Part shown: in pieces, positions 15,997 through 19,958 of the stretch
How the letters are laid out: each line of letters opens with the position of its first letter
Position numbering within the stretch: position 1 is the first letter of the stretch
Assembly: GCA_024639765.1 (NCBI GenBank)
Contig: JAHEHU010000013.1
Location: 1-48,451 of the forward strand
Direction: 5' to 3'
Origin: Eudoraea sp.
GTDB lineage: Bacteria; Bacteroidota; Bacteroidia; Flavobacteriales; Flavobacteriaceae
Length of the DNA: 48,451 bases
Program-made: the position numbers and the translations under genes
The notes under the pieces: model-generated
Told to the model about the DNA's origin: nothing
The model's input: only the letters and a program-made list of their open reading frames with translations
The model's database searches: none

Positions 15997-16998
15997 TTAA
16001 TCGTTTAAAAGGGACCACAATCTATCCTTGAGATCCTGTAATCCGTATTGAGAAACAGAAGAAATAAAGAGGAAAGGAACATCTCCGAGATCTTTTTTCA
16101 CTTCTATACGCATTTCATCCATTAATTCCTCATCCAGCATATCTGCTTTTGAAATTGCTACAAGCCTGTTCTTATCTAACAATTCCGGATTGTATTTACG
16201 AAGTTCATTCAGCAAGATCTCATATTCCTGAGAAACATCTGCACTATCTGCAGGGATAAGGAACAATAGAATTGAATTTCGCTCAATATGACGCAGGAAA
16301 TAGTGACCAAGTCCTTTGCCTTCGGCTGCCCCTTCAATGATCCCGGGTATGTCTGCTATCACAAAACTTTTAAAATCCCGGTACTTTACTATTCCAAGGT
16401 TGGGTTTTAAGGTTGTAAATGCATAGTCTGCTATTTTTGGTTTAGCAGAGGTAAGGACTGAAAGTAAGGTAGATTTTCCTGCATTTGGAAACCCTACCAG
16501 ACCCACATCGGCAAGTACCTTGAGCTCCAAAGTAAGGTCTTGATCCGCTCCCGGTATCCCCGGTTGCGCATAACGAGGTGTTTGATTCGTTGCTGTTTTA
16601 AAGTGCCAGTTCCCCCTGCCGCCTTTTCCTCCTTCAAGTGCTATTTTCTCCTGCCCGTGTTCTGTGATCTCAAAAAGCACTTTCCCTGTTTCTAAATCCT
16701 TTACTACGGTCCCAAGCGGCACATCCAGATAGATGTCTGATCCATCGGCACCGGTACTCCTGTTCTTACTTCCATGTTCCCCATGACCCGCCTTAAAATG
16801 CCTTTTGAATTTAAAACTCAGCAGTGTCCAAAGACTTTCATTTCCTCTTAAGATAATATGACCTCCTCTGCCGCCATCTCCACCATCGGGACCTCCCTTG
16901 GGGACGTACTTTTCACGATGAAGGTGGGCAGAGCCCTTCCCTCCATTGCCAGAAGCAACCGATATCTTCACATAATCTACGAAATTGCCTTCTGTCAT
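15997..16998 (-). CDS. obg: GTPase Obg/CgtA
   Basis: A 333-residue Obg GTPase, which binds the 50S ribosomal subunit and links ribosome assembly to growth state. The N-terminal glycine-rich Obg fold covers residues 1-158 ([35 protein letters not shown]). The G domain follows, with G1 GFPNAGKST at 169-177, the ADIPG switch II motif near 215-219, and SKAD and SSVSQYG as G4/G5. The C-terminal Obg extension found in Firmicutes is absent, as is usual in Bacteroidota. It lies 70 bases after the hpt-adk fusion on the same strand and is likely co-transcribed with it. Confidence 0.96.
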
Positions 16999-17068: not shown

Positions 17069-18178
17069 TTAGGTAAGGGTGTTGATCACTTTTGACAATC
17101 TTTCAGTGATATCTTCGATACTTCCAATACCGTTCACACTGTGAAACTTGTTCTGAGCATCGTAGTATTCTTTTAAAGGAGCCGTTTTCAGATTGTATTC
17201 TTCAAATCTATTTCTGATCTTATTTTCATCCTGGTCATCTGGGCGACCGCTGCTTTTACCGCGTTCCAGCAATCGTTCAATAAGCACTTCATCATCAGCC
17301 TCCAAGGCAATTGTAGCATGAATTTTCATGTCCTTGGTCTCTAAGAAATTATCCAGCGCTTCAGCCTGTGCCGCAGTCCTGGGGAACCCGTCGAAAATAA
17401 ATCCGCTCGCTTCAGAATTCTTCTCTACCTCATCTTTTAACATACTTATGGTTACCTCATCTGGCACCAGATCTCCTTTATCCATGTATGATTTAGCCAA
17501 TTGGCCCAGCTTGGTATTATTCTTAATATTGAAGCGGAATACATCACCTGTGGATATGTGTTTCAGATTGTATTTTTCTTTCAGATATCCGGCCTGCGTA
17601 CCTTTTCCGGCACCAGGTTTTCCAAATAAAACAAGATTGATCATATGAGTTTGGTTAATTTGATAGACATCGCGCAAATTCCTTCCTAGTTCCTTATAAT
17701 CCAGACCATATCCTACTATAAATTTATCCGGAATTTCCAGGCCAACGTAGTCAATGGTATACTCACCATTATAGACCTCAGATTTGAAGAACAGACTAGC
17801 GATCTTAAAGTTCCTGACATTGGTATTCGAAAAAATATGTACTAATTCCTGAAGTGTTCTTCCTGTATCAATTATATCCTCCAGGATAATTACATTCCTT
17901 CCTTCTATAGTATCAGGAACCTCTAATAGTGTTTCAACAATTCCAGTGGATGTTAATCCACTATACGAACTCAATTTCACAAAAGACACTTCACAAGGAT
18001 GGGGATAAAATTTCAGGAAATCTGAAACAAACTTAAAAGCGCCGTTGAGGACCCCTACAAAAATTGGCACGTCATCTTTGTAATCTTCGGCAATTTCTTC
18101 TGCCATACGTTTTACCGCAGCCAGAATTTTTGCCTCAGACAAAAACAACTCAAAATTTGTATTGTGAATCTTTATCAA
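17069..18178 (-). CDS. Fused hypoxanthine phosphoribosyltransferase - adenylate kinase
   Basis: One uninterrupted frame of 369 residues encodes two enzymes. Residues 1-175 are a type I phosphoribosyltransferase with VGVLNGAFKF, KLSSYSGLTSTG and the PRPP motif ILEDIIDTGRTL (98-109), giving IMP/GMP from hypoxanthine/guanine. Residues 179-369 are a complete short-LID adenylate kinase (P-loop GKPGAGKGT 186-194, FDGFPRT, LLERGKSSGRPDD). No stop or frameshift separates them. Met179 (17644) could start a separate 191-residue Adk. Its 5' context is A-rich but the strong Bacteroidota promoter is missing, so a fusion product is the simplest reading. The start is TTG at 18178; no in-frame ATG precedes the conserved HPRT N-terminus. 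Confidence 0.88.
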   Translation of the reverse strand: MIKIHNTNFELFLSEAKILAAVKRMAEEIAEDYKDDVPIFVGVLNGAFKFVSDFLKFYPHPCEVSFVKLSSYSGLTSTGIVETLLEVPDTIEGRNVIILEDIIDTGRTLQELVHIFSNTNVRNFKIASLFFKSEVYNGEYTIDYVGLEIPDKFIVGYGLDYKELGRNLRDVYQINQTHMINLVLFGKPGAGKGTQAGYLKEKYNLKHISTGDVFRFNIKNNTKLGQLAKSYMDKGDLVPDEVTISMLKDEVEKNSEASGFIFDGFPRTAAQAEALDNFLETKDMKIHATIALEADDEVLIERLLERGKSSGRPDDQDENKIRNRFEEYNLKTAPLKEYYDAQNKFHSVNGIGSIEDITERLSKVINTLT

Positions 18179-18201
18179 CGTACTGTCATCGTTTAGGTGG
18201 G

Positions 18202-18209
18202 CAAAGATA
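18202..18209 (-). promoter_or_regulatory. -7 box for the hpt-adk operon
   Basis: TATCTTTG on the minus strand matches the TAnnTTTG box exactly and lies 23 bases before the TTG start. A clear TTTG at the usual spacing upstream is not seen, so the -33 element is weak or absent. Confidence 0.45.
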
Positions 18210-18312: not shown

Positions 18313-19467
18313 ATGAATTATTTTTCTTCCCGTTTTACTTTAGGAATATTGGGAGGTGGTCAATTGGGTAAAATGCTGTTATATGAAACACGAAAATGGG
18401 ATATTACCACCACGGTCATGGACCCTTCTGATGACGCCCCTTGTAAAATAGCGTGTAATAAATTCATTCAGGGAGATCTAATGGATTTCAAAGCAGTGTA
18501 TGACTTTGGAAAATCTGTGGATGTACTTACCATAGAGATCGAAAATGTGAATACAGATGCTCTGGAAAAATTGGAGGAAGAAGGAATACGTGTTTTTCCA
18601 TCCCCAAAGGAACTCAGGATTATTCAGAACAAGATCACCCAGAAATTATTCTATGTAGATCACAATATTCCTACTGCACCATTTTCTCGTTTTGCTTATA
18701 CGAGTGAGATCAAAGAAAGTATTGCCCACGGCGGGTTAAAATTACCTTTTGTTTGGAAAAGCGCACAGTTCGGATATGATGGACAGGGTGTTAAGATCAT
18801 CAAGGAGGTTTCAGACCTAAAGGACCTTCCCAATGTAGAATGCCTGGCGGAAGATCTGATTCCCTTTAAAACCGAATTGGCAGTTATAGTAGCCAGAAGT
18901 ACAAGCGGGGAGATCGCAACATATCCGGTAGTGGAAATGGAATTCCACCCCGAGGCAAATCAGGTGGAATATGTTTTGTGCCCTGCAAGAATAGATGATA
19001 AGGTGGCCCAAAAAGCCAGGAATATTGCCCTGAAGATATCTGAGGAATTAAAGCACACAGGGCTTCTTGCTGTTGAAATGTTCCAAACTGAAGATGATGA
19101 GGTTTTGGTAAATGAAGTGGCCCCAAGGCCGCATAATAGTGGTCATTATAGTATAGAGGCCAGCTATACGAACCAGTTTGAGCAGCACCTCCGCTGCATT
19201 TTAGGACTTCCTCTTGGCATGACTGACAGTAAGGTAGCCGGAGTAATGGTGAACTTGGTGGGAGCCGAAGGATATGAGGGTGACGTTCACTACAATCACA
19301 TTGAGGAAATATTAAAATTAAAAGGAGTAACTCCGCATATTTACGGAAAAACAAAAACGAGACCCTTTCGAAAAATGGGGCATGTCACTATAGTCAATAA
19401 AGACATGGCAGAAGCTAGAAAAATAGCGCAAGAAGTAAAAGAAACCATCAAAGTAATAAGTACGTAA
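18313..19467 (+). CDS. purK: 5-(carboxyamino)imidazole ribonucleotide synthase
   Basis: A 384-residue ATP-grasp enzyme that converts AIR, bicarbonate and ATP to N5-CAIR in purine synthesis. The N-terminal Rossmann-like start GILGGGQLGKML, the ATP-grasp central region (PFVWKSAQFGYDGQG near residues 149-163) and the hallmark NEVAPRPHNSGHYS are all present. The C-terminal domain ends with HIYGKTKTRPFRKMGHVT. Length is normal. The purE gene starts 5 bases after the stop, so the two consecutive steps are co-expressed. It diverges from hpt-adk, placing purine synthesis and salvage side by side. Confidence 0.96.
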   Translation: MNYFSSRFTLGILGGGQLGKMLLYETRKWDITTTVMDPSDDAPCKIACNKFIQGDLMDFKAVYDFGKSVDVLTIEIENVNTDALEKLEEEGIRVFPSPKELRIIQNKITQKLFYVDHNIPTAPFSRFAYTSEIKESIAHGGLKLPFVWKSAQFGYDGQGVKIIKEVSDLKDLPNVECLAEDLIPFKTELAVIVARSTSGEIATYPVVEMEFHPEANQVEYVLCPARIDDKVAQKARNIALKISEELKHTGLLAVEMFQTEDDEVLVNEVAPRPHNSGHYSIEASYTNQFEQHLRCILGLPLGMTDSKVAGVMVNLVGAEGYEGDVHYNHIEEILKLKGVTPHIYGKTKTRPFRKMGHVTIVNKDMAEARKIAQEVKETIKVIST

Positions 19468-19472
19468 GAATT

Positions 19473-19958
19473 ATGAGTAAAGTAGCCGTTGTCATGGGAA
19501 GCACAAGCGATCTTCCGGTAATGCAGGAAGCCGTTGATATCTTAAAGGGATTTGATATTGAGGTAATGGTCGATATCGTTTCAGCACATAGAACCCCTGA
19601 AAAATTGTTTGAATTTGGGCGATCTGCTCATCAAAACGGCTATACCGTGATCATTGCCGGAGCAGGAGGAGCTGCCCATTTACCTGGAATGCTGGCCTCC
19701 TTGTCCCCTCTCCCCGTCATTGGGGTCCCTATAAAAAGCAGTAATTCCATTGACGGCTGGGATTCTGTCTTGTCTATTCTTCAAATGCCTGGCGGGGTGC
19801 CGGTTGCTACCGTAGCACTAAATGGAGCCAAGAATGCAGGTATATTAGCAGCGCAGATCATAGGTAGTCAAGATTCCTGTGTACGAGATAAGGTCATTTT
19901 TTATAAAGAAGGCCTTAAAGAAAAAGTAATTCAAGGGGCCAAAAAAATAAAAAAGTAA
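19473..19958 (+). CDS. purE: N5-carboxyaminoimidazole ribonucleotide mutase
   Basis: A 161-residue class I PurE, which moves the carboxylate of N5-CAIR to give CAIR. Motifs: MGSTSDLPVM at residues 8-17, SAHRTPEKL near 39-47 with the catalytic His, the glycine-rich AGAGGAAHLPGML near 68-80, and SLSPLPVIGVP. The substrate-binding loop GVPVATVALNGAKNAG follows. Length is typical of the stand-alone enzyme. It lies 5 bases behind purK. A 109-base gap separates it from the M3 peptidase gene. Confidence 0.96.
   Translation: MSKVAVVMGSTSDLPVMQEAVDILKGFDIEVMVDIVSAHRTPEKLFEFGRSAHQNGYTVIIAGAGGAAHLPGMLASLSPLPVIGVPIKSSNSIDGWDSVLSILQMPGGVPVATVALNGAKNAGILAAQIIGSQDSCVRDKVIFYKEGLKEKVIQGAKKIKK

Follow-up and report, generated by a model that had tools for sequence, protein, structure and literature searches.

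A conserved in-frame ATG as a putative second translation start in the fused HPRT–adenylate kinase gene of Flavobacteriaceae

Introduction

Does a gene that encodes a hypoxanthine phosphoribosyltransferase (HPRT) and an adenylate kinase (Adk) in one reading frame make one protein or two? This question is raised by a locus on a contig of a Eudoraea sp. (JAHEHU010000013.1), of which we analysed positions 1 to 48,451; this whole stretch of 48,451 nucleotides is referred to below as the window. A preliminary description of this DNA had proposed a fused gene that is read from TTG and whose internal Met179 could also yield a free Adk. The HPRT–Adk fusion itself is already known, and the putative conserved second start described here appears to be new; among the open-licence papers listed by our searches, none described a conserved internal start for an HPRT–Adk gene.

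The fused enzyme of Zobellia galactanivorans (ZgHGPRT/AMPK) was made in E. coli from a supplied gene construct, purified via an N-terminal tag and measured for both activities (Acosta et al. 2020, PMC7326950). According to the sections of that report cited here, the protein gave a single 42-kDa band, was mainly a dimer, formed IMP and GMP, and converted AMP and ATP to ADP with a kcat of 0.07–0.16 per second and a KM for AMP of 8 mM, the kinase assays listing AMP, ADP and ATP only. Its authors suggested a role in salvage and, given the modest kinase activity, that adenine-nucleotide homeostasis could be maintained without the fused protein. In the same sections, the enzyme is treated as one 42-kDa product, with no mention of an internal start. 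Because the protein was purified via its N-terminal tag, any free Adk would have been lost.

The HPRT–Adk frame and its domains

On the minus strand, a single open frame of 369 aa without internal stop runs from 18178 to 17069 (Table 1), and stops are numerous on the plus strand across these positions. The N-terminal domain matched Pfam Pribosyltran over the cut-off (residues 17–162, 75.9 bits) and NCBIfam TIGR01203 HGPRTase (151.7 bits, cut-off 150), and the C-terminal domain matched Pfam ADK (PF00406; residues 184–343, 174.4 bits, cut-off 26.8) and NCBIfam NF001381 adenylate kinase (231.5 bits, cut-off 187). The variable part of the linker between the two domains is approximately four residues long (175–178). 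These results bear out the earlier claim of two complete enzymes, joined in one frame by a linker of a few residues.

Across 62 aligned sequences, E100, D101, D104, G106 and T108 of the HPRT domain were invariant, as were K132, the P-loop residues, R215, R267, R302, R312 and D314; E100, D101 and D104, together with this second set, are active-site residues of the two domains. HPRT residues ~96–109 presumably form the PRPP loop, and the sequences GKPGAGKGT and DGFPRT carried by the Adk part are assumed to be the P-loop and a known Adk motif, respectively. AlphaFold2, run on the alignment of 62 sequences, predicted two domains well (mean pLDDT 85, pTM 0.54); with a pTM of this level, the predicted model does not settle the orientation of HPRT relative to Adk, and it gives no sign of a channel.

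Table 1. Features of the HPRT–Adk locus and its surroundings in the window
Feature	Position	Strand	Basis or remark
Fused HPRT–Adk coding sequence	17069..18178	−	TTG start at 18178, stop at 17071-17069; open frame, Pfam and NCBIfam
HPRT domain, residues 1–174, class I phosphoribosyltransferase	17657..18178	−	Pfam, NCBIfam
Adk domain/putative free Adk, 191 aa	17069..17644	−	Pfam, NCBIfam, alignment
Linker and putative internal translation-initiation region, codons 170–178	17645..17671	−	Synonymous constraint; G-poor, A-rich
ATG at codon 179, candidate start codon for a free Adk	17642..17644	−	Conservation among fused genes
TATCTTTG, match to the −7 box TAnnTTTG	18202..18209	−	24–31 nt upstream of TTG
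obg (GTPase), next downstream gene	15997..16998	−	70 nt after the Adk stop
purK and purE, divergent upstream neighbours, purine synthesis	18313..19958	+	NCBIfam

With both domains in a single frame, a short linker and the active-site residues kept, the gene is, as judged by its sequence, a member of the bifunctional ZgHGPRT/AMPK type, the known HPRT–Adk enzyme of Flavobacteriaceae, in a new organism. Its domain order is the same as that given for ZgHGPRT/AMPK, and the published linker (REVYQLNQKH) differs from that of the window (RDVYQINQTH) at 3 of 10 positions. Among aligned congeners of Z. galactanivorans, the proteins of Z. russellii and Z. barbeyronii shared 79% and 77% identity, respectively, with that of the window. 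The nearest named record was from an uncultured Muriicola (Flavobacteriaceae), with 92% identity.

We then surveyed the window genome for related genes. The fused gene was the one ADK-family match over the cut-off, and the whole fused protein as query gave a single match at E ≤ 0.001. Nine matches to the phosphoribosyltransferase domain exceeded the cut-off, counting the fused gene; of the remaining eight, three were typed, namely, as PyrR, as adenine phosphoribosyltransferase and as one below all cut-offs, and none of the three was an HPRT. The genome also carries separate gmk (guanylate kinase) and apt-type genes. A 165-aa phosphoribosyltransferase (L005, on G000:C163) fell under all NCBIfam cut-offs and was nearest to PyrR and weakly similar to HGPRT.

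Distribution of fused and separate genes

Among 395 Flavobacteriaceae genomes with a completeness of at least 90%, the uninterrupted fused frame was present in 280. Nine others carried both domains in the same frame with at least one stop inside the match, 31 had adjacent separate hpt and adk genes, 73 had adk without an adjacent HPRT match, and two gave no match. The expectation that similar fusions exist in related flavobacteria was thus confirmed by mapping the combined Pribosyltran and ADK architecture, and a stop or frameshift between the domains, sought in independent sequence, was absent from the same 280 frames. Within the family, hpt may have been lost repeatedly.

The phylum sample consisted of 392 genomes, 46 in Flavobacteriaceae (the window's own included) and 346 in other families. 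Among the matches listed for these 346 Bacteroidota genomes, there was no uninterrupted fusion, a fusion with a long linker being one that would give two separate matches in this search. The only matches listed outside the family that spanned both domains were those of G503 and G623, and both contain stops. Similarly, none of the 23 loci from outside Flavobacteriaceae that were examined as DNA was fused. Three genomes of other families, G489, G691 and G719, had been considered as carrying fusions from their large open-frame values and were rejected on account of stops between the genes (L192, L193 and L196).

In a FastTree phylogeny of the Adk domain (234 sequences), the fused label changed at least 20 times, seven of these changes being forced by well-supported branches, counts that cannot tell gain from loss. 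As an example, three split genes with the genus code g28 (L163, L164 and L364) grouped with three fused genes at a support of 95, and the enclosing fork, at a support of 90, held 50 fused and 3 split rows. The full collection comprised 433 loci, 10 of them without a usable Adk match. Its 310 fused loci were reduced to 289 distinct ones by dropping exact duplicates, the own-genome copies L002 and L006, and short or N-bearing sequences.

In 57 of 58 distinct genomes with the fusion (59 of 60 handles, G773 and G774 showing the same coordinates as G001 and G002, i.e. two genomes entered twice), no ADK-family match other than the fused gene passed the cut-off. Many of the 60 handles are single-contig, and two Zobellia species are included. 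The exception, G342, has a second, weak ADK-family match of 34.7 bits. The presence of a sole ADK-family gene is hard to reconcile with the suggestion of the Zobellia study that the fused protein is dispensable for adenine-nucleotide homeostasis.

The first start codon and its upstream box

TTG is the first ATG, GTG or TTG codon in the 369-codon frame. A relative with 92% identity (L013) likewise carries TTG at this position, where two others (L017 and L018) carry GTG; the genus relatives L014–L016 have instead an in-frame ATG five codons further upstream. The proposed TTG start is therefore retained, as the first possible start codon in the frame and with a TTG or GTG at the same place in these relatives. 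Upstream of the TTG lies a match to TAnnTTTG (Table 1), which we take to be the consensus of the Bacteroidota −7 promoter box. Such a −7 box has been described for Flavobacterium johnsoniae. Of 122 representative fused genes, 105 had the TAnnTTTG sequence within 100 nt upstream of the first start, at a median position of −30 (−31 in the window).

The nearest start codon of the 289 distinct fused genes was TTG in 127, GTG in 97 and ATG in 65; for the 122 representatives, the corresponding numbers were 48, 28 and 46. Split hpt genes with a distant adk had ATG in 29 of 30 cases, and those with a close adk had ATG in 23, TTG in 10 and GTG in 8. The start of obg, which was found at 100 of the 122 loci, was ATG in 99. 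The association of a non-ATG first start with fusion is offered as a suggestion only; phylogenetically independent pairs were unsupportive of such a tie (8 pairs, median p 0.625). At ~18174-18188 on the minus strand, we observed a four-codon ATG reading with its TGA overlapping the TTG start; as it is missing in the nearest relative, L013, this overlap is probably due to chance.

Conservation of codon 179 and of synonymous sites

Codon 179 was ATG in 286 of the 289 distinct fused genes (198 of 199 in an earlier set), the three others being L160, L407 and L421. The neighbouring residues 175–178 vary among fused genes. At unfused loci, the same codon was ATG in 110 of 113.

Next, we analysed the synonymous diversity of the fused genes, normalized for amino acid, in nine-codon segments. 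The diversity was nearly flat along the gene except for one dip with its minimum at codons 170–178, where it was 0.63 of expectation in 132 representatives and 0.68 in 122 stricter representatives; the lowest segment elsewhere in the gene was 0.899 (122 representatives). Codon shuffles within the gene never reached the dip (0 of 200, lowest value 0.913; 0 of 500, lowest value 0.897), and, as such shuffles break column coherence and understate the spread of the null, the rest of the gene is the better yardstick. The dip was found separately in two identity bands, at 70% identity or more with the window protein (0.59, n=80; lowest other segment, 0.88) and at 55–70% identity (0.56, n=47; lowest other segment, 0.84). 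The third identity group, of five sequences only, gave 0.65 at codons 170–178 and lower segments elsewhere.

In the constrained stretch, third-base G drops from 17% to 3% and third-base A climbs from 28% to 60%. Q173 was encoded by CAA in 119 genes and by CAG in one, as compared with 81 CAA and 51 CAG for Q195. No synonymous dip was found ahead of the invariant Met246, which indicates that a conserved internal methionine alone does not cause the dip. Met179 may have a role as an amino acid, but such a role would leave the synonymous signal unexplained.

Nucleotide context of the internal ATG

The phylum of F. johnsoniae is described as being without Shine–Dalgarno signals, and the well-translated genes of this species as carrying A at positions −14 to −11 and also at −3 and −6, being weakly structured at the start and containing few stray AUGs, in the part of that study cited here (PMC6847099). 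In 131 fused genes, A was present at −13, −12 and −11 before ATG179 in 89, 92 and 82%, respectively, a pattern like the A motif that F. johnsoniae initiation regions have at −14 to −11. At −3 and −6, A was present in 44% and 46% only. The window's own site is mediocre, with TTAA at −14 to −11 and C at −3. In 57 of 61 genes (every second of the 122), predicted unpairedness at −20 to +20 of ATG179 was higher than the mean of the gene, accessibility and A-richness being mutually dependent measures at this site. Another ATG starting in the interval from −21 to −1 was found in 4 of 122 fused genes.

Within the 120 nt preceding ATG179, the sequence TAnnTTTG was present in 4 of 122 genes, as against 302 of 1511 other intragenic segments, and this depletion makes a separate transcript unlikely. 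A scan for sigma-70-type promoters detected 4 sites, compared with 5.1 in shuffles.

As a control, we used split genes. Over all codons, third-base G at the hpt end was 11.1% where adk lay within 30 nt (whole gene, 14.2%; n=26) and 11.6% where adk was distant (whole gene, 14.0%; n=26); by this measure, close-adk and distant-adk split loci do not differ. Considering E, Q and K codons, those ending in G at the hpt end were 23/424 in fused genes (rest of gene, 2634/8508), 11/120 in split genes with adk within 30 nt (rest, 345/1336) and 14/86 in split genes with adk farther away (rest, 224/1011), with p=0.002 for the fused versus the far group and p=0.14 for the fused versus the close group. The fused genes thus appear to be the most constrained, and, from these mixed controls, part of the A-preference may predate a nearby Adk start or be independent of it. 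In summary of the codon data, both a conserved internal start codon and a selected nucleotide context of the initiation type were detected, and the all-codon split-gene control was neutral. Taken with the synonymous dip, the proposal that Met179 could yield a free Adk is well supported at the level of sequence.

Proposed products of the fused gene

We propose, with a probability of roughly 0.7, that the gene makes two products from one mRNA, namely, the full-length HPRT–Adk and a free Adk. Translation from TTG would give the full-length 41-kDa protein, and independent in-frame initiation at ATG179 would give a free Adk of 21 kDa. The end of the HPRT coding part would be forced to keep the A-rich, unstructured stretch around ATG179, and adenylate kinase activity, for which the genome has no second ADK-family gene over the cut-off, would come from the free Adk. 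That ribosomes start at ATG179 itself is what we infer from this pattern, and a comparison of the TTG or GTG first start with the internal ATG points to free Adk as the more abundant product. The three fused genes without ATG179 indicate that free Adk from codon 179 is not needed everywhere. Such a second start, if true, would reconcile the poor published kinase with the sole ADK-family gene. In addition, two operon genes could fuse and split again at a small cost with the downstream start being kept, and annotation of such genes as one product would miss a protein.

More tentatively, and at somewhat less than even odds, this arrangement might serve as a translational dosage device, in which the weak TTG or GTG would give little HPRT–Adk, the protected internal ATG would give most of the Adk in its free form, and the bifunctional enzyme would be a minor by-product. 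As adk kept its own start, loss or regain of the hpt stop would be nearly costless, which would account for the alternation of fused and split genes on the tree. Such a device, if true, would be used by most of the Flavobacteriaceae for their only adenylate kinase, and the weak reported kinase activity would not reflect the Adk of the cell.

One gene and one frame with two products differing at the N-terminus, as proposed here, are described for infB, cheA and clpB in the portion of the source cited (PMC11005335); unlike in those genes, the putative start of the HPRT–Adk gene would release a whole second enzyme, and it lies in an A-rich, G-poor context. Phage endolysins that yield two polypeptides from one gene are likewise reported, with overlapping in-frame ORFs and a shared stop codon, as would be the case here, but these are lysis proteins, whereas HPRT–Adk combines two metabolic enzymes (PMC9430671).

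A rather unlikely alternative is that the gene makes the full-length bifunctional protein and nothing else; the A-rich, constrained stretch would then be a relic of a separate adk or an aid to co-translational folding or ribosome pacing at the domain junction. The published recombinant protein, seen as one 42-kDa band, mainly a dimer and active in both reactions, agrees with this, although its N-terminal tag would have caused a free Adk to be lost (PMC7326950). A single product also accords with the three fused genes that lack Met179, with the split hpt ends that are A-rich whether or not adk starts nearby, and with the good confidence of both domains in the fused model. A relic should decay, however, and both identity bands that hold enough sequences show a strong constraint, while pacing leaves unexplained the near-invariant ATG179, the scarcity of other ATGs and the A at −13 to −11. 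For a free Adk arising from an internal promoter or by proteolysis of the linker, rather than from internal initiation on the same mRNA, the chances appear very small: a free Adk, however produced, would make good the shortfall in kinase activity, yet TAnnTTTG, the type of box counted across the family, is depleted before ATG179, and proteolysis would not constrain synonymous sites.

The preliminary description had supposed that the fusion couples the formation of IMP and GMP to nucleotide phosphorylation. That the fusion exists for this purpose, with salvage products passing from HPRT to the kinase, is highly improbable. Two purine enzymes do share one chain and a salvage role has been suggested, but the products of HPRT are IMP and GMP, not AMP, and the listed substrates of the kinase are adenine nucleotides only (PMC7326950). 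The window genome has separate gmk and apt-type genes, with a guanylate kinase of its own for GMP; moreover, the model, at a pTM of 0.54, does not fix how the domains are arranged, fused genes alternate with unfused ones along the tree, and in 73 of the 395 Flavobacteriaceae genomes adk has no HPRT match next to it. IMP is not known to be a substrate of Adk, and its conversion to AMP needs other enzymes first. The supposed coupling was thus left unsupported. An artefact of assembly or a frameshift has a negligible probability, the same open frame being present in 280 of the 395 family genomes.

Other observations at adk loci

Several genomes with adk and without an adjacent HPRT match were smaller than 2.3 Mb. 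In the window, an out-of-frame ATG upstream of codon 179 (~17641-17670, minus strand) was noticed by eye; it opens a nine-codon reading, the TGA of which overlaps the internal ATG. Two loci with the same genus code (g202), one split (L395 in G237) and one fused (L400 in G355), carry TAA and AAA, respectively, at the same codon; this difference, two codons before the Adk ATG, is one among others between them.

A frame of 373 codons in G316 (L390) has an acetyltransferase-like part before Adk, keeps the start Met and has no adjacent HPRT match. We take this N-terminal part to be a GNAT domain, a name given by eye from its motifs, and from its sequence the locus may represent another type of N-terminal Adk fusion. 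Finally, a second, distant Adk-like match with 30–37% identity was found beside the normal one in five cases (G172:C4, G220:C1, G277:C8, G280:C1 and G385:C12).
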